The position numbers were made by a program, and so were the translations under genes. The notes beneath the pieces were generated by a model that saw only the letters and a list, made by a program, of their open reading frames with translations, was not told the DNA's origin and ran no database searches. Below are positions 8,009 to 59,389 of a DNA stretch of 64,000 bases, one piece after another; within the stretch, counting starts at the first letter, position 1, and every line of letters begins with the position of its first letter. Source of the stretch: Mytilus galloprovincialis (lineage: Eukaryota; Mollusca; Bivalvia; Mytilida; Mytilidae); contig NC_134847.1 in assembly GCF_965363235.1 (NCBI RefSeq), positions 47,805,305-47,869,304 on the forward strand, in the 5' to 3' direction.

Positions 8009-11000
8009 TCATTCAGGAATTATAACTCTGTATGTCAAATTAATTCTTGGACCTCTGTCATGATATTCTCTAGGAATTCTATGCTATAAAAAGAAAAAAG
8101 AAAACATTCAATAGAATAGCATACATCTGAGTGAGTTTAAAAGCTAACATTGTTTGTAATAATTCATATTTAAACAACAATTCCAGGTCATTTTAAATAA
8201 GAAACAAACAAGTTCCCAGAGACAGCATCTTTTTAATCTCAGGTTATAATTCAATTTTACAGTATATTTCCCCCCCATCTATAATATTTTTATACGACCG
8301 CAAAATTTGAAAAATTTTTCGTCGTATATTGCTATCACGTTGGCGTCGGCGTCGTCGTCGTCGTCGTCGTTGTCGGCGTCGTCGTCGTCGGCGTCGTTGT
8401 CGTCCGGCGTCCGAATACTTTTAGTTTTCGCACTCTAACTTTAGTAAAAGTGAATGGAAATCTATGAAATTTTAACACAAGGTTTATGACCACAAAAGGA
8501 AGGTTGGTATTGATTTTGGGAGTTTTGGTCCCAACATTTTAGGAATTAGGGGCCAAAAAGGGCCCAAATAAGCATTTTCTTGGTTTTCGCACTATAACTT
8601 TAGTTTAAGTGAATAGAAATCTATGAAATTTTGACACAAGGTTTATGACCACAAAAGGAAGGTTGGGATTGATTTTGGGGGTTTTGGTTCCAACAGTTCA
8701 GGAATTAAGGGCCAAAAAAGGGCCCAAATAAGCATTATTCTTGGTTTTCGCACAATAACTTTAGTATAAGTAAATAGAAATCAATGAAATTTTAGCACAA
8801 GGTTTATGACCACAAAAGGAAGGTTGGGATTGATTTTTGGAGTTGAGGTCACAACAGTTTATGAATTAGGGGCCAAAAAGGGGCCCTATTAAGCATTATT
8901 TTTGGTTTTTGCACCATAACTTTAGTATAAGTAAATAGAAATCTATGAAATTTAAACACAAGGTTTATGACCATAAAAGGAAGGTTGGGTTTGATTTTGG
9001 GAGTTTTGGTCCTTACAGTTTAGGAATAAGGGGCCCAAAGGGTCCAAAATTGAACTTTGTGTGATTTCATCAAAAATTGAATAATTGGGGTTCTTTGATA
9101 TGCCGAATCTAACTATGTATGTAGATTCTTAATTTTTGGTCCCGTTTTCAAATTGGTCTACATTAAGGTCCAAAGGGTCCAAAATTAAACTTAGTTTGAT
9201 TTTAACAAAAATTGAATCCTTGGGGTTCTTTGATATGCTGAATTTAAAAATGTACTTAGATTTTTAATTATTGGCCTAGTTTTCAAGTTGGTCCAAATGG
9301 GGGTCCAAAATTAAACTTTGTTTGATTTCTTCAAAAATTGAATAAATGGGTTCTTTGATATGCCAAATCTAACTGTGTATGTAGATTCTTAATTTTTGGT
9401 CCAGTTTTCAAATTGGTCTACATTAAGGTCCAAAGGGTCCAAATTAAACTAAGTTTGATTTTAACAAAAATTAAATTCTTGGGCTTATTTGATATGCTTT
9501 ATCTAAATATGTACTTTGATTTTTGATTATGGGCCCAGTTTTCAAGTTGGTCCAAATCAGGATTCCATATCAAGTATTGTGCAATAGCAAGAAATTTTCA
9601 ATTGCACAGTATTGCACAATAGCAAGAAATATCTAATTGCACAATATTGTGCAATAGCAATTAATTTTCAATTGAAGTTATCTTTCTTTGTATAGAATAG
9701 TAGTTGATAATATATGTTGGAAATTTGCCAGACATGACTATGATGTCATTTTCTATTTTTATTTGCCAATAACTTTATGTAAATAACTTCATTGGAAATT
9801 TGCCAATATAAAATGTTGCTGCTGAAGCTTTTTTTCCTTATCTTATCTAAAATGTTTTAGATAATGTATGTTGGAAATTTGCCAGACACGACTATGATGT
9901 CATTTTCTATTTTTATTTGCCAATAACTTTATGTTAATAACTTCATTGGAAATTTGCCAATATAAAATGTTGCTGATGAAGTTTTTTTTATTGTTTTATA
10001 CAATAAACAATGTATATTCACTTTTACTACCAACCAATCTTTACCATTCAGTGATAACAAGCACTTTATTTTACATTTTAATATTTTATGATGTATTTAA
10101 AAGAGTAGTTATTGTTGCAAACTCCATTAGAAATTTGAATTGATATCAGTTTTGGAAAAAGGGAAACGGGGATGTGAAAAAAGGGGGAGGGGGTTAAATT
10201 TTTCTCATTTCAGATTTCATAAATAAAAAGAAAATTTCTTCAAACATTATTTTGAGAGGATTAATATTCAACAGCATAGTGAATTGCTCAAAGGCAAAAA
10301 AAAACTTTTAAGTTCATTAGACCACATTCATTCTGTGTCAGAAACCTATGCTGTGTCAACTATTTAATTTTAGATTTAAATAAGAAGAAATCTTTAATTG
10401 ATTTGTAAAATCTTGACATTTGTTTTGTGTAAAAAAACCCATGTAATGTCAAAAATTTGATCACAATCCAAATTCAGAGCTGTATCACGCTTGAATGTTT
10501 TGTCCATACTTGCCCCAACTGTTCAGGGTTCGACCTCTGCGGTCGTATAAAGCTGCGCCCTGCGGAGCACCTGGTTTTAACATGATTTTACATGTGTTTG
10601 TATTTACTTTGTGTCTTTTAAATCTCAGGTTGAAATTCAATTTAACAATATAGTTTTTTTCAATCCATAATTAAAAATAAAATAACAGGATTTTACTTGT
10701 GTTTGTATTTACATTTTGGTTTTTCTTTTTAGTGTTTATACCTTTGTCACATTATTTGTAGATGACAAAATTATTAAATTTATTATTTCTTTTAATATGT
10801 ATTTCTGTATTGGCCTTTTTATTGGTAGGCGTTTTTGTTATAATTTTATTTCAGTTTTGCATCTGTAAATTGCATATTTCATATTTTTCTCATTGATTTG
10901 TTTTAAATACTATATAATAACTACCTAGAGTTTTTGCTTTGTTTATATAGGATGCTATATTAATTTTCATCATTATCATACTTATTTTTTGTGCAAACCT

Positions 11001-18756: not shown

Positions 18757-21700
18757 CTACCTCAATAAATTCGATCGCACCTGATGTAACTTAAAACATA
18801 GTCCTCTAGTAATACATTCCACTTTAAAAACATCGCCTCTGGACAGAAAATGAAATACACTGCAGTCTATAATTAACTGTAAAGTGTTGATTTCGGAACA
18901 AAATAGTTCATCATAAAGTTTAGTAGTTACAACATCTTTAATAAAAGTTTTTAGACTCTGTATAAAACTGTTTCTCACATTATCTAAACTACTGCATCTC
19001 AAGATAAAATGTAACCGGTTCTCATCCTCAATTCCACATAGCGGACAGATTGCACTAATTTGTCGTTTACTAAATTTAGACTTATCACATTGAAGAGTAT
19101 AGGTGTTACATGCTAACTTAGATTTGATACAAGCACGTAAGGTAGAGTAAGGTTCAGATCCACAAGTATTCCAAATAGAATGAATGCTTCCAAATTCAGC
19201 ATCAGTATAGTTTAAAAGGTTTAAAGATGATTTTTCTGACGCTTCAGATTTTAGTTTAGTTATCCAGTAGTAGTTTACTAAGGAGTTAACCAGTTTTTTC
19301 CATTTTGACTTTGAAGGAGGGTTGACAAGTAGATCATGAGGTGACGGCAGATCATATAATTCTGTAATTGTAACTACTTTACGAAACCAGCTGTTTGATG
19401 ACTCGGTTTTCATTGCAAGTTGACGGAATGCTAAGTCACGTTCGACAGAGTTATCATTATCAATAATGTTTCTAAAAATACCAAGGATTCTTTTGTGGAT
19501 TTCTGCTTCAATAGGAATTTGTCCAATTAATAGTAGAACTGCAGCATTTGCTGTACGGTCCGGTAAATGTTGAATACGTTTTAAAAGTTTCACAAAATAT
19601 ATTGTAAGATTACTAATGTCTGTTTTTGAAAGCAGTATGACCTCAAGTCCATATAAAAGCCTGGGAATCACGTAGCAGCGGATAAGATGAAGTGAAACCT
19701 TAGGGTTGACTCCGTTTAGTCCATAAAGTCCAGCACCCATCAGTGAGTAGACAGTCTGTCTGGCTAGTTGAATGCGACCAGGGACAACTTCTTTAGTGCC
19801 TAAACGGGAAAGTTTATCACGTTTAATACCGAGATGAACTGCGTTTTCCGGAGTATCCAAAATTTCACCGTTAATAGACCAATCGAAAGAGTCAGCACAT
19901 CTATAGTTTAATACACATGATTTTTGACTACTAATAAGATAACGATATTTATTAGCATGAAAAGTTTGTAAATCTAACATAGACTGTATTTCGTATGGAC
20001 AGTTTGAAACTAAGGTGACATCATCTGCGACTGTCGGAACTCCTACGTAGATTGAGCCAATATGAGAACCTAAACGATAGGTTTCGAGTGTAGTGAGAAG
20101 AGAGTTTATGAAAATCTTATAAGCGGTTGGGGACCAGACACCACCCTGTCGGACACCTTGAGATTCCAGGAATGTTCTGGACGTTTGTCCTTGCCATTTG
20201 ATATTAGAGTTCAGCCCATTATACCAGTCCTTAAAGAGAAGCCAATTGTCACCACAAAGTCCAGCTTTATTCATTTCACGAAGAAGACCATCATGCCAAA
20301 CTACATCGAAAGCACTTTTAGCATCAGTGAGTGCAATAATTAGTGGATTCCCATTCTCTTTAGCCTCAGTATGTAATTCAGTAAGAATAAGCGCAGCAAC
20401 AAGCGGTATTTCACCTTGAGTAAACCCTTTCTGTAACGGACTTTGTATATTGGAAATATTGTCCTTATTCCTGACAAGATGTAATTTTTCTGTTAATTTC
20501 CCAACGGGATTAGTAATAGTAATTTTCCTGTAGGAACCAGGATCCTCTTTCGGTTTCCCCTTTTTCTTGAAAACAGGACAAGCAAGTCCATTTTTAAATA
20601 CAGTTGGAATAATATGATTTGAAAATGAGAATGATATAATAGATGTTAAAACATAAGAGAGAGTTTTTCCACCAAATTTTAAATGTTCACAAGTTACTCT
20701 AGAGGCATCAGGTGCCTTTCCATTCTTAAGTGAATTAATAATGTGTACCACCTCCTTTTCTGAGACTGGGGCCAGAGTATCTCTATTATTAGTATAAGTA
20801 TCGGTCAAGGCTGCTATGTCCTGTTCCACAATAAGTTTATATGTATCATCAAAGTCCGGGTTATCGACCGGGGTAGCTAACTTTTCGTAATATGAAGCCC
20901 AGGTATCTAAAATTTCTTCCTCAGTATTTATTATTTTATTGTCATATTTTAAAATAGATGTCACAGAAGAGCGCAAGTTACGCTGGTTGTTAATTAAAGT
21001 ATAGAAATTTTTATCATTTCTGTCAGATAGCGACATAATTTCAGTAAATTTAGACTGTCTCTTAGCAGATTCTATTTTCCTTTGTTCTGATCTAAGTTTC
21101 TTTTTAAGTATTCTCATTTGTTGATAATGAATGCTTAGTTTATCTGATGTTCCCTCTTGTCTCCACATCCAATAATGATATTTACTACGGTTTAAAATTT
21201 CAGTCATATTCGGAGTCCAGCATCTATTATTTTTCCCACGTTTTCTACTTTTCGGAGGTTGGAGCGAATCGGCAGTTTGAGTAATTATCTCACAAGCAGA
21301 GAACACAAATTCATCAAAGTTTTCAATTGATAGATTATCTATTTCAGTTACTTTTGACTGTAAGTTTAATTCCAATAATCGCTGATATTCACATTTATCA
21401 ATCTTATTCCAGTTAATACGCTGCAAATGATTGTTTTTTGGAATAGCATTTGGTTTATCTGACGTTTTTGTTATAACTGATACCATTATCGGATCATGAG
21501 TAGAGGTGTTAGCTGATTCACGGCTATACGTACAGTATGTATTAATAATATCAAAATTCTGAATAAAATAGTCAATTTGTGACTCATCACGATTGTTAAA
21601 ATGATAAAATGTACTACGCTCAACACAGTTGTCAGGAATACGTAGATTATTATTACGTAGAAAGTTTTTAAAATCATTATCTCTAGGATGGTTCCTGAAA

Positions 21701-22173
21701 ATTGAGGCGTTCATATCACCACCAATTAAAATATTAGCAGAGTCTCTATATTTTGTGACAATTTCGATAAGTTCGTCTAATACAGAAAGATAGTCATCAC
21801 GACTATAATTAATACTACGAGAAGGTAAATATACAGAAATAATCACCAGAGGTACTTCAAAGTTCAAACGTATTGCGGCAATTCTATTACTTCCATCAGG
21901 TAGTTTCTCCAAATATGGACTATATTTATTGTTTACGCAAATTGCGACCCCAGCATGCGCACGTTTTCTATCAACTACATCATCAATAATTCCATCGTCA
22001 AAACACTTAATATGACAGTTAAAATCTATAAAATTAGAATACAAATTATCCTTCTCATGACTATAGAGCCAGTGCTCTTGAAGTAAGATGATATCTGATC
22101 TTTTAATAAGTTTATAAAGATACACTAAATTAGAGGTCAGTCCTTCAATGTTAAAAAATAAAATATTTAACAT
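18757..22173 (-). CDS. LINE ORF2: endonuclease/exonuclease/phosphatase-type endonuclease plus reverse transcriptase
   Basis: 1138 codons with no interruption, starting at an ATG just after the ORF1-like stop. The N-terminal APE-like endonuclease shows LLQEHW (E33), GGDMNAS (D153, N155), QIDYFI (D201) and STHDP (H226, D227). The reverse transcriptase spans about residues 480-800: NGKAPDAS, GSYRKITITNP, LQKGFTQG, LTDAKSAFDVVWHD (D617), GVRQGGVWSP and TVADD (D717, D718), a Val variant of the usual YADD or FADD box. A CCHC motif near the C-terminus (C1043, C1046, H1055, C1060) matches the family's terminal zinc finger. All catalytic residues I can check are present, so the copy may be recent. It nicks target DNA and copies its own RNA there. 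Jockey/CR1-like by resemblance. Confidence 0.88.
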   Translation of the reverse strand: MLNILFFNIEGLTSNLVYLYKLIKRSDIILLQEHWLYSHEKDNLYSNFIDFNCHIKCFDDGIIDDVVDRKRAHAGVAICVNNKYSPYLEKLPDGSNRIAAIRLNFEVPLVIISVYLPSRSINYSRDDYLSVLDELIEIVTKYRDSANILIGGDMNASIFRNHPRDNDFKNFLRNNNLRIPDNCVERSTFYHFNNRDESQIDYFIQNFDIINTYCTYSRESANTSTHDPIMVSVITKTSDKPNAIPKNNHLQRINWNKIDKCEYQRLLELNLQSKVTEIDNLSIENFDEFVFSACEIITQTADSLQPPKSRKRGKNNRCWTPNMTEILNRSKYHYWMWRQEGTSDKLSIHYQQMRILKKKLRSEQRKIESAKRQSKFTEIMSLSDRNDKNFYTLINNQRNLRSSVTSILKYDNKIINTEEEILDTWASYYEKLATPVDNPDFDDTYKLIVEQDIAALTDTYTNNRDTLAPVSEKEVVHIINSLKNGKAPDASRVTCEHLKFGGKTLSYVLTSIISFSFSNHIIPTVFKNGLACPVFKKKGKPKEDPGSYRKITITNPVGKLTEKLHLVRNKDNISNIQSPLQKGFTQGEIPLVAALILTELHTEAKENGNPLIIALTDAKSAFDVVWHDGLLREMNKAGLCGDNWLLFKDWYNGLNSNIKWQGQTSRTFLESQGVRQGGVWSPTAYKIFINSLLTTLETYRLGSHIGSIYVGVPTVADDVTLVSNCPYEIQSMLDLQTFHANKYRYLISSQKSCVLNYRCADSFDWSINGEILDTPENAVHLGIKRDKLSRLGTKEVVPGRIQLARQTVYSLMGAGLYGLNGVNPKVSLHLIRCYVIPRLLYGLEVILLSKTDISNLTIYFVKLLKRIQHLPDRTANAAVLLLIGQIPIEAEIHKRILGIFRNIIDNDNSVERDLAFRQLAMKTESSNSWFRKVVTITELYDLPSPHDLLVNPPSKSKWKKLVNSLVNYYWITKLKSEASEKSSLNLLNYTDAEFGSIHSIWNTCGSEPYSTLRACIKSKLACNTYTLQCDKSKFSKRQISAICPLCGIEDENRLHFILRCSSLDNVRNSFIQSLKTFIKDVVTTKLYDELFCSEINTLQLIIDCSVFHFLSRGDVFKVECITRGLCFKLHQVRSNLLR

Positions 22174-29600: not shown

Positions 29601-32600
29601 AAAAAACCCAAGGAGTTCAAATATCTGACACAAATTCCTAAACCTCACCCCAGTGCATCCTTAATACTGAAGTATTTGAAATACAGAGTTCAGGGATATC
29701 TTTTATTTGTTTAACTTTTTTCATTTTCAACAGATTCACCCAGACAGTCACCACGAATACCAAACAAAAACAAACCCAAGGAAGAGAAAGAAACAAAAAA
29801 TCCAAAACATGATATTATTGTCGTCAAAGATGGCACTCAGTACGTCAAGGACCCTGATCCAGAACTGACAAAATTAAGCACAATACCAGTTTTCTATCCA
29901 ATAATGAGGGGTTCACTTAATATACCAGTAAGTTCTAGAGATGGAGATTTGCTAGATAAAATGGACCACCAGAAGTTACTAGACCTTTGTTTACGTTATC
30001 AGGAACATTTAAAACATTTATCAGAAGCAGTGGCATTTGACCAGAATGCTTTGTGTGTTAGGATTAAAGAGGTAAGTGACTTGTAATGTAAAATGGTTGT
30101 TGTAGATGCTGACTGTAAAATCAAGAATTTTTGCAATCTATAAAAATGAACAAACATGTGAGATGGGTTATTGCGATTTATGAAAAATGGACAAAAATGT
30201 TAGATTAATTATAGCATGCTGTGAGTTCAGTCATATTTGTGGTGTTTTCTAGATTTATTTTTTTGAATGTTTAGTTGGAAAGTTGGACGGATTCACATTA
30301 ATTGTAGTTCACAATTTTTTAGTTCTCACTCATTATTTGAATGCAGTACTAGGTGAAATTTGCAATTTCAACAGCACAATACTCCTCTTTAAGCATGTTT
30401 AAACTGATAGAATCATTTGTCCAAAGAATATATTGCACAAAAATGTAATACTAGATACAAGATGAGCAATGAAAGTCCCTGGTTACATTTAGTTTTCCTC
30501 TCAAAACATAGCATATTGATCTATTGTAATAAAAATTCATAATATCTAATAAAATTTGTAGATTTAGCTAACAAAGTTCTTACATTAGTATGAAGTAACA
30601 TTCTTTTATAGTGGAAAATTGTTTTAACATTAAATAAGCTACAATTAAAAATTGCTTGCTAGTCCCTCTGTAATTAATATTAGATAACTCTGGTTAATTC
30701 CCAATCAATCTATCATGAAGGGGAGATAAATACCTTGCCTTTAATTTATAGTCTTTTTCAAAAATAATGAACGGTTCTTTACATTGGTATGTAATCATTT
30801 TAAACATTTCAAATTTATGAAATTATATTCGTACATCAATGTTTTTGATGCAGCAATAACAAGAACTGAAATATATTGAATTATTACATTTTGTAATTAT
30901 TCAAAATTATATCAGAAACCTATACTTAATTATAAAATAATGAACCTGTTAAAGGTAGACAATACTCACATTACTTTTTGTTCAAATTGGCACATCAATA
31001 TAATTAATTAACTGTGCATTCGAGCTCCACCTTCAATGAAGATTCTAAATTATAAATATAACCAAAAGTTGTTAATCTATAAAATAGTGAAGACTAATGA
31101 AAGCTAACCCACTGCAAAAATTATTGCTTTGAAATTTTTTAAAACTTCTCAGGAAAATGCTCAAGCCACTTGACTTTCATAGCTCATAATTAACGTTTTT
31201 ATACGACTGCAAAAATTTTTATTTTTCGTCGTATATTGCTATCACGTTGGCGTCGTCGTCTGCGTTGTCGTCGTCCGAATACTTTTAGTTTTCGCACTCT
31301 AACTTTAGTAAAAGTGAATAGAAATCTATGAAATTTTAACACAAGGTTTATGACCACAAAAGGAAGGTTGGGATTGATTTTGGGAGTTTTGATCCAAAAA
31401 GTTTAGGAATTAGGGGCCAAAAAAGGGACCAAATAAGCATTATTCTTGGTTTTCGCACAATAACTTTACTTTAAGTAAATAGAAATCAATGAAATTTAAA
31501 CACAAGGTTTATGACCACAAAAGAAAGGTTGGTATTGATTTTGGGAGTTTAGGTCTGAACAGTTTAGGAATTAGGGGCCAAAAAGGGGCCCAAGTAAGCA
31601 TTATTCTTGGTTTTCGCACCATAACTTTAGTTTAAGTAAATAGAAATCTATGAAATTTAAACACAAGGTTTATGACCACTAAAGGAAGATTGGGTTTGAT
31701 TTTGGGAGTTTTGGTCCCAACAGTTTAGGAATAAGGGGCCCAAAGGGTCCAAAATTGAATTTAGTTTGATTTCATCAAAAATTGAATAATTGGGGTTCTT
31801 TGATATGCTGAATCTAACTGTGTATGTAGATTTTTAATTTTTGGTCCCGTTTTCAAATTGGTCTACATTAAGGTCCAAAGGGTCCAAAATTAAACTTAGT
31901 TTGATTTTGACAAAAATTGAATCCTTGGGGTTCTTTGATATGCTGAATCTAAAAATGTGCTTAGATTTTTGATTATTGGCCCAGTTTTCAAGTTGGTCCA
32001 AATCGGGTCCAAATTAAACTTTGTTTGATTTCATCAAAAATTGAATAATTGGGGTTCTTTGATATGCCAAATCTTACTGTGTATGTAGATTCTTAATTTT
32101 TAGTCCCGTTTTCAAATTGGTCTACATTAAAGTCCAAAGGGTCCAAAATTAAACTAAGTTTGATTTTAACAAAAATTGAATTCTTGAGCTTTTTTGATAT
32201 GCTGAATCTAAACATGTACTTAGATTTTTGATTATGGGCCCAGTTTTCAAGTTGGTTCAAATCAGGATCCAAAATTATTATATTAAGTATTGTGCAATAG
32301 CAAGAAATTTTCAATTGCACAGTATTCAGCAATAGCAAGAAATCTTCAATTGCACAGTGTTGTGCAATAGCAAGAAATTTTCAATTGCACAGTATTGTGC
32401 AATAGCAAGAAATCTTCAATTGCACAGTATTGTGCAATAGCAAATATTTTCAATTGCACAGTATTGCGCAATAGCAAGAAATATCTAATTGCACAATATT
32501 GTGCAATAGCAAGAAATTTTCAATTGATTGGAGTTATCTTTCTTTGTCCAGAATAGCAGTTGAATCAACTTAAATCATTGTTTTATACAATAGACAATGT

Positions 32601-53685: not shown

Positions 53686-55363
53686 TAAAAATATCCTTTA
53701 CAGAACATATTCACACCTTTGAATAACATCACACAATTATCCTTCTCATTGTAATATACAAATCCAGACAGTAATTCACTTTTTATAATCAATGTCATCT
53801 TCTTCAAAAGAGGAAATATAAATCATTTATAATTGTCATTTCAATGAAACAGCACTGATATAGTTTTGCGAGGACAAAAAGGTTAAATTGTTCAAGATTT
53901 TTTTTCTGCTTTAGGCAAATTCAAATACTTATATATCTTTAATATCTTGATTATCAAAAGCACACAACGTTATATAAATTCATTTATGTTTTGATAACTA
54001 TAAAACTAACTCAAGGAATATGAAAAGTGCGATCTTTCAATATCAGATACTTACATTTTATTGATTAATGTACATGAATTGTTTTTTCCCGAAAAGGTCC
54101 GTTGCTTTATACATGTAAATGAGACGTCCATATTTTCATTGAGAAAAAAAAGCAACATTGGCTCTCGGGTCTGGTTTAAAAAAACTGATTAAAAATTATT
54201 TACCTCCACCATTGCTTCTTTTTCTTTTTTTTTTGTTGTTTTGTTACATATATGTACTATTATAAACTTCCAAATGTTTTTTAATTCGCTAGTTCATCAA
54301 CCAGTAGGCTGTTTTCTTCAGGCCTCAGGCCTCACGGGATTGCACACTTCATTATTGAAAATATCTAGAGTTTACTTTCATAATTATTCTACAATGGACA
54401 ATGGAAAGTCATAAACATACTTGCAGTTTTTACTGCGGATACACTCAGATCAGCACGTAGTTTATTTCTGTTGTGTGGACGTTCACGTTCACTGTGTGCT
54501 TTGTTAGATGCATTTCTATTGCATCCATATGCATTAAGCCTTTTTATTGTTTGGTCTTTTGTTGTACTGTTACACCACTGTCCGAGGCTAGGATTAGGAG
54601 GGGGTGCCGACAACAAACTTGTTTAACCAACCACTCTTTGTGGTTGCCAGTACAAGTCAAGAACCTGTAAATCAGTGGTTGTCGTTTGTTTGTCGTGAAA
54701 CACATTTGGTTGTTCGTTCATTAATTTGTACATACATTAGGCCGTAAGTTTTACATTTGCAATTTCGAAAGATATAAGAAAATGTGATATGAGTGCCAAG
54801 TCACAATTTGTAAAAGTAAACCATGATAGGTCGAAGAACGGTCTTCAACACGGAGCATTGGCTCACACCATGCACACCAAACAGCAAACTATAAAGGGTT
54901 CCAAAATGACTAGTGTAAAACAATATAAACGGCAAAACTGAAGCCTTTTATAGCTTAATATATACATGATATACGGTATAGACATTGCGCATTTTGACCT
55001 ATAATTGTTAATTTTCTGTGTCATTTGTTTTATTGTGGAGAGTTGTCAATTATACCACATCTGCCTATCTTTATAAAGCATTGTGCATGGAAAACCATGT
55101 ACATGTACTATGAAAATTAGAAGAAAAAAAAAACTTATTTTCTATTGGACAAGTATGGTTGAGTACTGTGGATATTTCGTTGGATACCAATTTTCTCGGG
55201 TTTCGTGGGTACGGTTGAACCACGAATGCGAAGGTTCATTGAATAAGAATATTTCTGTAGGTTTTTTATGCAGAGATAACAAAACTACGAAATCAAATAT
55301 CCATGAAAGGCAAATGTTCCTTAATCCACGAAAATGGATACCCATGAAAATTAATGAATCCAC

Positions 55364-55368
55364 AGTAT
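55364..55368. repeat. left target-site duplication AGTAT
   Basis: AGTAT directly precedes the left terminal repeat and recurs at 57257-57261 directly after the right one. Five bases is a normal duplication length for LTR elements. Confidence 0.65.
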
Positions 55369-55783
55369 TATAGCCAGACTATTTGCTGGGTATTAAAATG
55401 AAGATTCAAGTCGGTATAAAGTTTAACAATTTAATAAACGATCCAACAAGAATATAAACGATGTTACAATATTGAGTCCGGTGTTTACGGTTTAAGAACC
55501 TATCCAAAACTGAATATAAATTATTTTTAAGAAGTATATAAAACAGAATAATTTAGAAATACATGTAACAACGGATTAGGCAATTATTGTCCATTGTTCA
55601 GATAATCTGCTAAAACCTGTCTTTGACACGTAGATACGAAGTCCATTATCGGATTAGTGGATCAGTTTAAACCAAAGATAATTGTGTGGGAATATTTGAG
55701 CTAAAAATGACAATTGAAAGATATAGTAATTAAAGTCAGAAAGATGATAGTCCAAATAATTAGCATGCTTTTCGTCCGGTCAT
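55369..55783 (-). repeat. 3' terminal repeat of the gag-only element
   Basis: 415 bp, nearly identical to 56837-57256. Starts TATAGCCAGACTATTTGCTG and ends CATGCTTTTCGTCCGGTCAT in plus-strand reading. Confidence 0.8.
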
Positions 55784-55833
55784 ATTTGCCTCTCTCGTCC
55801 AGAATCACGTCCACGGGATTTGAATTTTCATAA

Positions 55834-56814
55834 CTAATATCTTCTTCCACGGTATTGATAGTTACGCCTGTTTTGATGATAATTTCCTGAATTTGTTCGA
55901 TTGTTGTTTTTTAATTGTTCTAGTTCATGTTCGTAACTTTTGCAAATTGCCTTTAAATCAAGTTCACTTTTTCTAACTACATTGTAAATTTTTGAAACAT
56001 CACTACAATGTAATTTCCAATTTTCTTTTTCTTCTTTTATCTCAGTGATATAGTCTGTTATTTTGTCGTGTCCTTTCTCATATCTTTGTACGGTGTTCTC
56101 CAGTTCGATAATTTTAGCGTCTCGAATTTTAATTGTTTCTCGAAGATTCTGAGTATTTTCTAGTTCTCTTGTCAATTCCATTAATGTAGACGTATGGATG
56201 AAATTTTCGTCTTCCAATTGGGTTTTTAAAGTTTCAATTTGGTCCCTTAGAAAACAATCACTATTGATAGTTGAAATGAAGCCAGCATTCCCGGTTTTGT
56301 TAAATGGAAGTTCCTGAAGTGTCCGTTTTCGATCAAAATAATCTTGAAGTCTTTTAGAATCTCTTTCCTTTTTCTTAATTGATTTCTTATTGTTACAATT
56401 TTCCTTTTGTGTCGAAATTGAAACAATTTTAAGTTCATTCTTATGAATTTTATCTCGGCCAACACGAGTGAAGCACTGTCGAGCAAAATGTCCTGGTTTT
56501 TGACATTTGAAGCATTTTGAATTACTAGCGGCACACAAACTCTTGTTGGTATGTTGCTTTCCACATTTTCCACACATTCTGATAAACTCTCTTCTTTCTG
56601 GATTAACTCGATACGGCATATAATTCCACATCCATGCTGGTCTTAAGGAATATCCGTAATAATCCATTGTATTGATATTACTGTCCAAATATAGTTCGTC
56701 CGAAATATAATAATTCTGGGGTAAGCTAGTCACTTGTCTGTAACTTGTCCTTGGGGAAATTTTGCTTGGCTGCGGAGGTAACGGAATCTTGTGTTGATCT
56801 ATAAAAGATAACAC
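55834..56814 (-). CDS. gag-like protein: zinc knuckles plus coiled coil
   Basis: Open for 326 codons between the two terminal repeats. Residues 81-94 (CGKCGKQHTNKSLC) and 101-114 (CFKCQKPGHFARQC) form a double knuckle like the nucleocapsid part of Ty3/Gypsy-type Gag. A Lys-rich stretch follows (143-165), then a long predicted coiled coil (about 188-302, rich in Glu, Leu and Lys). The end is an Arg/Asn/Tyr-rich basic tail (NRRNYQYRGRRY) that could bind RNA. No capsid domain is recognisable. The first ATG is at residue 50. It may package or multimerise on the element's RNA; this is inferred. The order knuckle then coiled coil is unusual for Gag. Confidence 0.65.
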   Translation of the reverse strand: MLSFIDQHKIPLPPQPSKISPRTSYRQVTSLPQNYYISDELYLDSNINTMDYYGYSLRPAWMWNYMPYRVNPERREFIRMCGKCGKQHTNKSLCAASNSKCFKCQKPGHFARQCFTRVGRDKIHKNELKIVSISTQKENCNNKKSIKKKERDSKRLQDYFDRKRTLQELPFNKTGNAGFISTINSDCFLRDQIETLKTQLEDENFIHTSTLMELTRELENTQNLRETIKIRDAKIIELENTVQRYEKGHDKITDYITEIKEEKENWKLHCSDVSKIYNVVRKSELDLKAICKSYEHELEQLKNNNRTNSGNYHQNRRNYQYRGRRY

Positions 56815-56836
56815 TCACGAGTCTCTAAACACCATG

Positions 56837-57256
56837 TATAGCCAGACTATTTGCTGGGTATTAAAATGAAGATTCAAGTCGGTATAAAGTTTAACAATTT
56901 AATAAACGATCCAAAAAGAATATAAACGATGTTACAATATTGAGTCCGGTGTTTACGGTTTAAGAACCTATCCAAAACTGAATATAAATTATTTTTAAGA
57001 AGTATATAAAACAGAATAATTTAGAAATACATGTAACAACGGATTAGGCAATTATTGTCCATTGTTCAGGTAATCTGCTAAAACCTGTCTTTGACACGTA
57101 GATACGAAGTCCATTATCGGATTAGTGGAAACATACAGTTTAAACCAAAGATAATTGTGTGGGAATATTTAAGCTAAAAATGAAAATTGAAAGATATTGT
57201 AATTAAAGTCAGAAAGATGATAGTCCAAATAATTAGCATGCTTTTCGTCCGGTCAT
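56837..57256 (-). repeat. 5' terminal repeat of the gag-only element
   Basis: 420 bp, nearly identical to 55369-55783. On the minus strand it is followed by CATGGTGTTTAGAGACTCG, where a primer-binding site would lie; I could not match it to a specific tRNA. Confidence 0.8.
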
Positions 57257-57261
57257 AGTAT

Positions 57262-59389
57262 ATTGTAAAAAAGGCAAGTGTCAAGATTGTGATCTCATTT
57301 AGTTTGCCATGTATTAACCATACCTTATATTAAGTTTTTATCGCAAGATGCGATTGGCAGAAATAAAAAATCATGACATTAATAGCTGAATTTTAAAATC
57401 ACAACATTTTATTGCTATATATATGAAATCACAATTTTCTGTTGTTTCAAATAATAACATTGTTAAATACGACATTTGTTTTTTTTTTTCAAATCCGGCT
57501 ACTCATCAGTTTAAATGTAGGAACAATTGTTCTGTGGATGTGTTTGAATCCTTGTTTGTCAGCAGAAAAAAAACTTCTGTCTGTGATAAAGTATATTCCA
57601 AACGATATATCACAATTGTTTAAATTTTATTGTTGGAACAAGTTAAATGATTTTTATAGTCTATAAAGTTATTCTAATTTTTAGAGAGGCGGAAAAATAC
57701 TCGTTAGTTGTAGAAAAACTGAAAAAGCACAATGTCAACTTATAAATTAGAGTATTCGAAAAGATACTACAACTGGCAAACAAAGGAGTAATATTTCCAA
57801 ATGCAACATGAGAAAAATATCCTGCCCATCTGAATGCTTTATGGGTATACATGAAGTTGCGAACATAATAGCTGCAGCATTGTCCCTCTCACGACCTCCA
57901 GTCGAATAATACAAATATATATCATTTTACTGCTGCGTTCACTTATGTTTCTATGGACCATTTAAGGAATGCCTTTTAAAATACTGGATCCAGATATGTA
58001 TCCATTTGAATCCAACAAATATACATTCTATGTGATTGATGTTATTCATTAAAAATATTTTAATGAATAGAATTTAACAAAAAGATATAAACCAGAACGT
58101 TATGTTTGATATCATAAACAAAAAAATGTTTTTGTTTTTTACAGAACCAACAAAAAATTAAAAAAAAAAAAAAAAAAACCCAAATCAGAACACAACTCAG
58201 AACGTTGTGTTTGAAATCGGTATTCCCTTAACAAAGGTTCATTCTATCTTCATGGTTTTATATAGTCCTTTGGATGAAATTTATCGATGTTTTATTTGTA
58301 ACTTGCATTTTTTTTTGTGTTTTTGTTTTATTGTTTTGTCATAAATGAAGACATTTTTCTTTTTATCATTTGACTGGCTTTATAGTTGGTCATGTTGATG
58401 CCTTCATTTCTATTAATTAAACTAAACTTTTGTCAGCATTTTGTCTTGTCAAGTTGCAACACTGCAATTAATACAAATGATATGCAACTGACTTTGAAGA
58501 AAATGAAGGAGATAATAATGAATAAAACATTTGTCTTTATAATTATCTTTTAGACGGTAAGTTTAAAACTACTATTACTTGTCCAATTATAAACTGTTCA
58601 TAAATAAGTTAATACTTATGAAATTTATTATGTAGCCCATTGTATTGCAATAGTGAACGCAAAGTAGCATTAACACGAATTTTTGCACATTGACATCAGA
58701 GGTTTTACGTCATTACGTTTTATATCAGGAAAGCTGTTACATATCCAATTACAAGCATTTTAGAAAAGCTTTTATTCCAAAAATTTGCCATTACCTACTT
58801 ATGAATTTTAGCAAGGAAACCAAAGCTACAACGACAATTTATATGGACTTGATATCCGTTCATCGAATCCTATAATGATCAGATGACCAAAACGAGAAAA
58901 AAGGCTAGTTCGATCGTCTGTTAATAATCGAAATGATTTAAACAACAATATTTTACAACAATTAGCAACCATATAATATCTTTATTAATGATATTTACTG
59001 AATAATATTTTTGAAATTTTGAAAATGTGTACACCGTGCAGTCAATAATTCAATATTTAATGTGTCATATTTACAATCATACGATGTATCAATGTAACTG
59101 CGAAAGCAAAGTAGCATTTGATATCCAAAAGCAGTGTTTTACTTTTGTTTGGTTTCTTGTCACGTGATCATTCTCAAAGCTACTATGTATTCTATTCATA
59201 CAACACATTGTAGTGTTTCATAAAAACATATTGTTTATTATCTTAGCGCAGGTATTAATATACCTTCGAATTGTCAGCTACCACATGACAAAAGAACGAT
59301 TCGTATGCGAAAGCAAATTTACAGAACTAACATTGTTGGGTTGATGTTTAGGCGAGTTATATATATATATCTATATATGTTAGCGGCAA
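57262..59389. other. gene-free stretch
   Basis: AT-rich with poly-A and poly-T runs (for example 58155-58178). No exon, repeat family or RNA gene was recognised. Confidence 0.4.

Follow-up and report, generated by a model that had tools for sequence, protein, structure and literature searches.

HeT-A of Drosophila is a gag-only retroelement that depends on the reverse transcriptase of another element, and it is a non-LTR, telomeric element. Among elements with long terminal repeats (LTRs), plant TR-GAG elements were reportedly described by Chaparro et al. in 2015. TR-GAG elements have two LTRs and a single Gag-type frame without pol (PMC8704663, PMC6022998), one of them transposed without most of the needed proteins, the mobile Arabidopsis TR-GAG has a similar and potentially autonomous relative (PMC8704663), and the Inpactor rule for the class accepts only a GAG, or a GAG plus protease, domain (PMC6022998). 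Descriptions from animals include the bivalve element biv-TRIM, with 202–218 bp repeats, a 77–80 bp interior, solo LTRs, tandem arrays and no known partner (PMC6934838), and ta-TRIM of taeniid cestodes, with no pol, a leucine-tRNA primer site, 4–5 bp duplications and an interior of about 590 bp that has no frame longer than 120 codons (PMC4558846). Also described are the bivalve retrotransposon Steamer, which is 4.5–4.9 kb long with LTRs of 153–219 bp starting TGTAACA, one gag-pol frame and the primer site TGGTGTCAGAAG (PMC8905726), and a gag-only mammalian gene (PMC9367772).

We analyzed a 64,000-nucleotide stretch of Mytilus galloprovincialis DNA (the window), which contains a 1.89-kb element on its minus strand (55365–57261, on contig C10 of the 1.38-Gb genome). 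Like a plant TR-GAG, this element has two LTRs, a single frame and no pol; unlike a TR-GAG, it carries a coiled coil after its zinc knuckles, and no full-length relative was seen among the matches scored or read. Plant TR-GAG elements are defined by a GAG domain, whereas the mussel protein has no GAG or capsid match in Pfam, which is a weak test. By analogy, the mussel element is one that would work like a plant TR-GAG but that falls outside the GAG-domain rule. It differs from biv-TRIM in that the mussel elements have LTRs of about 416–640 bp and interiors of 1.0–1.2 kb with a protein gene, and from TRIMs in general, which are small and without coding domains, in that the mussel families carry open frames of 277–348 aa (nine frames read, the window's and those of eight relatives). 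ta-TRIM and the mussel element are both animal elements without pol, but only the mussel interior has a long frame. HeT-A is likewise a gag-only retroelement, but a non-LTR one. As to Gypsy-type elements, a gag-pol-like frame in the same genome has similar knuckles; Steamer's TGGTGTCAGAAG is close to the primer site of a decayed relative of the mussel element, while its LTR size, LTR start and gag-pol frame differ. No described animal counterpart was found among the matches listed from the open-licence PMC literature.

Our preferred reading, to which we assign a probability of about 0.7, is that the mussel element is a non-autonomous LTR retrotransposon that is moved in trans and supplies its own RNA-binding, oligomerising protein.

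The features of the window element are collected in Table 1. As the preliminary description had it, the element is bounded by near-identical direct terminal repeats, which differ by 6 substitutions and one gap across 416 aligned bases, and the 1,052-bp interior contains a single frame, on the minus strand, with a coiled coil and what proved to be two zinc knuckles. The polypurine-like tract described earlier is a purine-rich stretch before the 3′ LTR, identified by position and composition, and closely similar variants of GACGAGAGAGGCAAA are present in other copies. The perfect 5-bp target duplication that had been proposed was corrected to 4 bp (GTAT, given on the plus strand), the fifth matching base being the LTR's own end base. 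Termini of TG...CA are usual for LTR retrotransposons, though not universal, and the window's family (family A) ends in TAT...ATA instead.

Table 1. Features of the window element, with positions in the window
Feature	Positions	Strand	Basis
Left 4-bp target-site duplication (GTAT)	55365..55368	.	Sequence and family-wide duplications
3′ LTR, 416 bp, sense ends TATGACC...GGCTATA	55369..55784	-	Terminal direct repeat
Purine-rich tract preceding the 3′ LTR, sense GACGAGAGAGGCAAA	55785..55799	-	Position and composition only
Probable coding region, starting at the first ATG (277 aa and a stop codon)	55834..56667	-	Frame and alignment of relatives
Leader: 2-nt spacer, primer-site-like TGGTGTTTAGAGACTCG, possible small stem-loop	56767..56836	-	
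5′ LTR, 421 bp	56837..57257	-	Terminal direct repeat
Right 4-bp target-site duplication (GTAT)	57258..57261	.	Sequence and family-wide duplications

The sequence TGGTGTTTAGAGACTCG begins two bases after the 5′ LTR, a position typical of a primer site. It matched no tRNA in a comparison made without the host tRNA set, and ARAGORN found 0 tRNA genes in 20 loci, a result that is uninformative for the primer match. In a decayed relative of the window's family (L072), the primer site is TGGTGTCAGAGA, near Steamer's leucine-tRNA site; judged by sequence, the primer may be a leucine tRNA, and the window's family differs from the decayed relative at that site. A TGG-type start just past the LTR and a purine-rich tract occur in families A, B and C. 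The stem-loop after the primer site was folded as well by 29 of 200 shuffled sequences in family A, 5 of 200 in B and 198 of 200 in C, and hairpins preceding the purine tract were equalled by 3 of 200 shuffles in B, 3 of 200 in C and 196 of 200 in A. Only family B thus outdoes its shuffles in the stem-loop, and only B and C do in the hairpins. In families B and C, 8-bp hairpins with different stems lie directly before the purine tract (L053:1500-1565 and L051:109-175). The possibility of a ribozyme, as in a retrozyme, was examined with Rfam at E up to 5 across 54800–57800 and rejected: both matches fell far below the gathering scores and neither was a ribozyme. Elsewhere in the window are an intact 1138-aa frame on the minus strand (18757–22173) that by eye resembles a LINE-type endonuclease plus reverse transcriptase, a 263-aa frame on the minus strand (270–1061) with a C2H2-like motif near its start, and two occurrences, about 23 kb apart, of the same tandem-repeat cluster (8424–9674 and 31288–32526; units of 161, 135 and 35 bp in the same order).

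We determined whether the structure recurs by searching the genome with the LTR and the interior of the window element. The LTR has at least 41 matches genome-wide (40 of 91 candidates scored), one of them only 67 bp long, and the interior has 15, of which 11 are full length including the window's own; the others of full length are 92.5–98% identical to it. We conclude from these counts that the element belongs to a repeated family and is not a chance arrangement. Two or more LTRs were found at 10 places holding 11 interiors, with LTR starts 1459–1479 bp apart; one place reads LTR-interior-LTR-interior-LTR. The structure is thus not confined to this locus. We read the window and 20 other loci, leaving out seven family-A LTR matches on C1 (24.4–29.7 Mb) and C4:75549475. 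Three of these 21 loci were dropped (L048 for want of an LTR end, L038 and L046 because they adjoin interior sequence), and the rest gave 18 insertions with both ends read (10 with paired LTRs and 8 solo LTRs). A perfect 4-bp target duplication flanks 16 of the 18, and the remaining two match at 3 of 4 positions. A 5-bp reading, which takes in one LTR end base, also fits many copies, the window's included; we take the duplication as 4 bp because the 5-bp reading fails in three copies whose 4-bp duplication is perfect. The check on a family that had been proposed beforehand therefore had a positive outcome: several copies share the short interior but carry different target duplications. A cluster on C1 (28.47–29.66 Mb), perhaps a duplicated segment, has six LTR copies within 1.2 Mb, on both strands and with about 90% likeness to those of the window.

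LTRs are more similar within a copy than between copies. After bases of flanking DNA were trimmed off the LTR alignment, the mean within-copy difference was 3.0 in nine two-LTR copies, versus 11.4 when partners were shuffled (permutation P = 5e-5, 20,000 shuffles). The ten multi-LTR places contain 21 LTRs; for 18 of these the closest sequence is strictly their own partner, for two there is a tie, and for one an LTR of another copy is closer. Paired LTRs differ by 0 to 7 substitutions per ~420 bases in the window's family, and by 0 (one copy of family C) and 1 (one copy of family B) across ~640 bases. The best reading of these sequences is that both LTRs of a copy came from one template, as reverse transcription gives; gene conversion could add to the likeness. 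Given the within-copy likeness, recent reverse transcription in trans is also the best reading of what had earlier been put forward as recent mobilisation in trans.

The frame has 326 codons when read from a GTG at 56814 on the minus strand. Related proteins mostly align from about residue 50, which is the first ATG, and the protein is therefore probably 277 aa long. It consists of two zinc knuckles, a conserved basic segment (KS..RD..R with LPF), a long coiled coil and an arginine-rich tail. The sole Pfam match above the cut-off was to a zinc knuckle (E = 2e-6), and no capsid or GAG model was found in the window protein at E up to 1. Across eight proteins searched at E = 0.01, zf-CCHC was matched in five, and the families listed included no capsid/GAG, protease, reverse transcriptase or integrase model. 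This lack of a capsid match is weak evidence, because in the gag-pol-like frame Pfam likewise failed to recognise the knuckles or any capsid. The stronger argument is one of space. The capsid normally sits ahead of the knuckles in Gag, and here the first knuckle comes after only 31 residues, which leaves no room for a normal capsid. The term Gag in the preliminary description consequently holds for the nucleocapsid-type knuckles but finds no counterpart in a recognised capsid. A structure model from the single sequence (mean pLDDT 58) has one helix, at residues 137–273, and does not model the knuckle region with confidence.

A much less favored origin for the frame, that a host coiled-coil CCHC gene was captured between LTRs, is very improbable: no capsid was recognised and the matches along the coiled coil in the PDB are weak and to unrelated, general coiled-coil proteins, but the knuckles best match retroviral nucleocapsids and a Gag polyprotein (with one cellular protein, retinoblastoma-binding protein 6, also among the PDB matches), and the minority of the 83 protein matches that were read revealed no host gene.

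We then compared the window protein with the rest of the genome, where those 83 rows correspond to 78 loci after merging pieces. Beyond the window's family there are dozens of protein matches at ~28–43% identity, many in frames of 260–400 aa, and several of the related loci are in tandem at a spacing of 1.4–1.8 kb. Eight open frames, belonging to families B to F, were read. Protein identity between families is 26–38%, and an alignment of eight proteins (the window's and seven others) has 18 invariant columns; common to all eight are an M[DEN] start, the knuckle cysteines and histidine, KS..RD..R with PF, and a long C-terminal part. A coiled coil after the knuckles, singled out at first as an oddity, is thus a common property of the related families. 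An IMG/VR scan returned no relative.

For families B and C the LTR layout comes from sequence read at the edges of the LTRs, and for family D from the spacing of LTRs and from tandem units. In family B the LTRs measure ~640 bp and the interior ~1,023 bp; the flanks of B show no duplication, and its ends fit TG...CA, less certainly. Family C has 638-bp LTRs, a 1,196-bp interior, TG...CA ends and a 4-bp duplication (GAAC). The query for D was the sequence separating two genes in a tandem array, which leaves its exact LTR ends unfixed. Queries with these LTRs (candidates scored: B, 40 of 102; C, 40 of 59; D, 37 of 37) gave at least 41 rows for A, at least 41 for B, at least 46 for C and 41 for D. 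Neighbouring LTRs on the same strand lie 1.2–2.1 kb apart, start to start, in 33 cases, and 31 of these 33 pairs enclose such a gene; conversely, of the 78 protein loci, 31 lie within pairs at this distance from the A–D queries. The sequences accordingly point to at least six families with a common protein architecture, with the LTR layout seen in four (A–D). Head-to-tail arrays occur at C2:55444153-55449639, C13:8461882-8466116, C11:19308336-19312641, C8:93452282-93456353 and C8:32263184-32266556, and two units read in the C2 array are 99.9% identical.

We evaluated selection on the frame within and between families. Two members of family E differ at 63.9 of 161 synonymous and 61.1 of 679 non-synonymous sites (dN/dS 0.17), and two of family B at 7 of 161 and 8 of 694 (dN/dS 0.26), while synonymous sites are saturated or nearly so between families. 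In the window's family, dN/dS is 0.47–1.65 against the window copy and 0.48–0.70 when the most diverged copy (L037) is compared with the other copies, and 6 of 11 interiors, among them that of the window, have a frame open from its ATG. Any selection acting on the protein is therefore weak or unseen in the window's family. Decay mostly after insertion would give this dN/dS pattern, which by itself shows no selection.

The search for a pol-bearing partner bears on the strongest alternative, namely that these copies arose recently by internal deletion from ordinary gag-pol elements of the same family and that the frame is what remains of gag. Deletion is the usual origin of such non-autonomous elements. 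A full pol region in most copies with window-type LTRs would have spoken against the preliminary description; among the matches scored or read, no such copy bears pol. Five LTR pairs on the same strand are 2.1–15 kb apart with no LTR between. The widest, C12:16695638/16699943 (4.3 kb) and C10:52946325/52953002 (6.7 kb), were rejected as partners: read only next to their LTRs, they look like duplicated solo LTRs because no primer-site start follows the upstream LTR. At a spacing of about 2.5 kb, two LTR pairs contain part of the knuckle and coiled-coil gene, and a 3.3-kb pair rests on a 33-bp piece. Three matches to LTR ends (C8:74712877, C3:21730889 and C3:93874632) were dismissed as partners, with a longest frame of 126 codons in 1.7 kb, as was C1:112925426, a decayed relative with no frame above 79 codons in the 1.0 kb read.

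A gag-pol-like frame of 467 codons does exist in the genome (C6:101865745). In Pfam it has matches to protease and, slightly below the cut-off, one to reverse transcriptase, and it matches the window protein at residues 65–137 (36% over 73 aa). This resemblance of the knuckles favors a gag remnant, and the LTR candidates were scored in part (40 of 91 for A, 40 of 102 for B and 40 of 59 for C), which leaves that explanation some room. However, the longest frame matched by the window protein is 467 aa, and the 467- and 435-aa frames match residues 64–138 only, that is, the knuckles. Moreover, four LTR families (A–D) have the same short layout with no pol-bearing sister seen, and the protein is widely diverged yet open in the eight relatives read. 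We consider recent deletion from gag-pol elements unlikely on this evidence.

Somewhat less probable still is that the elements are miniature ones (TRIMs) in which the frame is incidental, and LTRs, primer site and purine tract suffice for movement. They are shorter than 2 kb and form tandem arrays and solo LTRs, as does biv-TRIM (PMC6934838), and the frame is broken in 5 of 11 interiors of the window's family. An incidental frame would not readily account for a protein architecture that persists between families with saturated or nearly saturated synonymous sites, nor for the gene's presence in 31 of 33 short LTR pairs.

A non-autonomous element moved in trans by means of its own protein could operate as follows. 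The element's RNA would start in the 5′ LTR and serve as the mRNA of one nucleocapsid-like protein. To judge by its domains, this protein would bind the element's own RNA through the two zinc knuckles and basic stretches, and would oligomerise through the long coiled coil, which may stand in for the missing capsid. Packaging of the element's RNA would occur in cis. The anatomy is that of an LTR retrotransposon without enzymes of its own, so that reverse transcriptase and integrase would have to be supplied in trans; the particle would recruit them from another LTR retrotransposon, and these foreign enzymes would make the cDNA and insert it with a 4-bp target duplication.

The usual view of non-autonomous LTR elements is that they are deletion products that do not last long. 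Here, diverged families that have one protein architecture in common, and in which no pol was seen, suggest instead a lasting parasitic lineage in an animal. In its fullest form, which we put forward tentatively and at somewhat less than even odds, this would be an animal lineage of LTR parasites with many families and no pol of its own, in which the capsid of Gag has been replaced by a coiled coil, so that the RNA-packaging protein would be a novel type of Gag made of nucleocapsid and coiled coil, and the enzymes of unrelated LTR elements are borrowed. A Gag without a normal capsid raises the question of which part of Gag packages RNA and recruits a foreign reverse transcriptase, and the young copies make this testable in living mussels.
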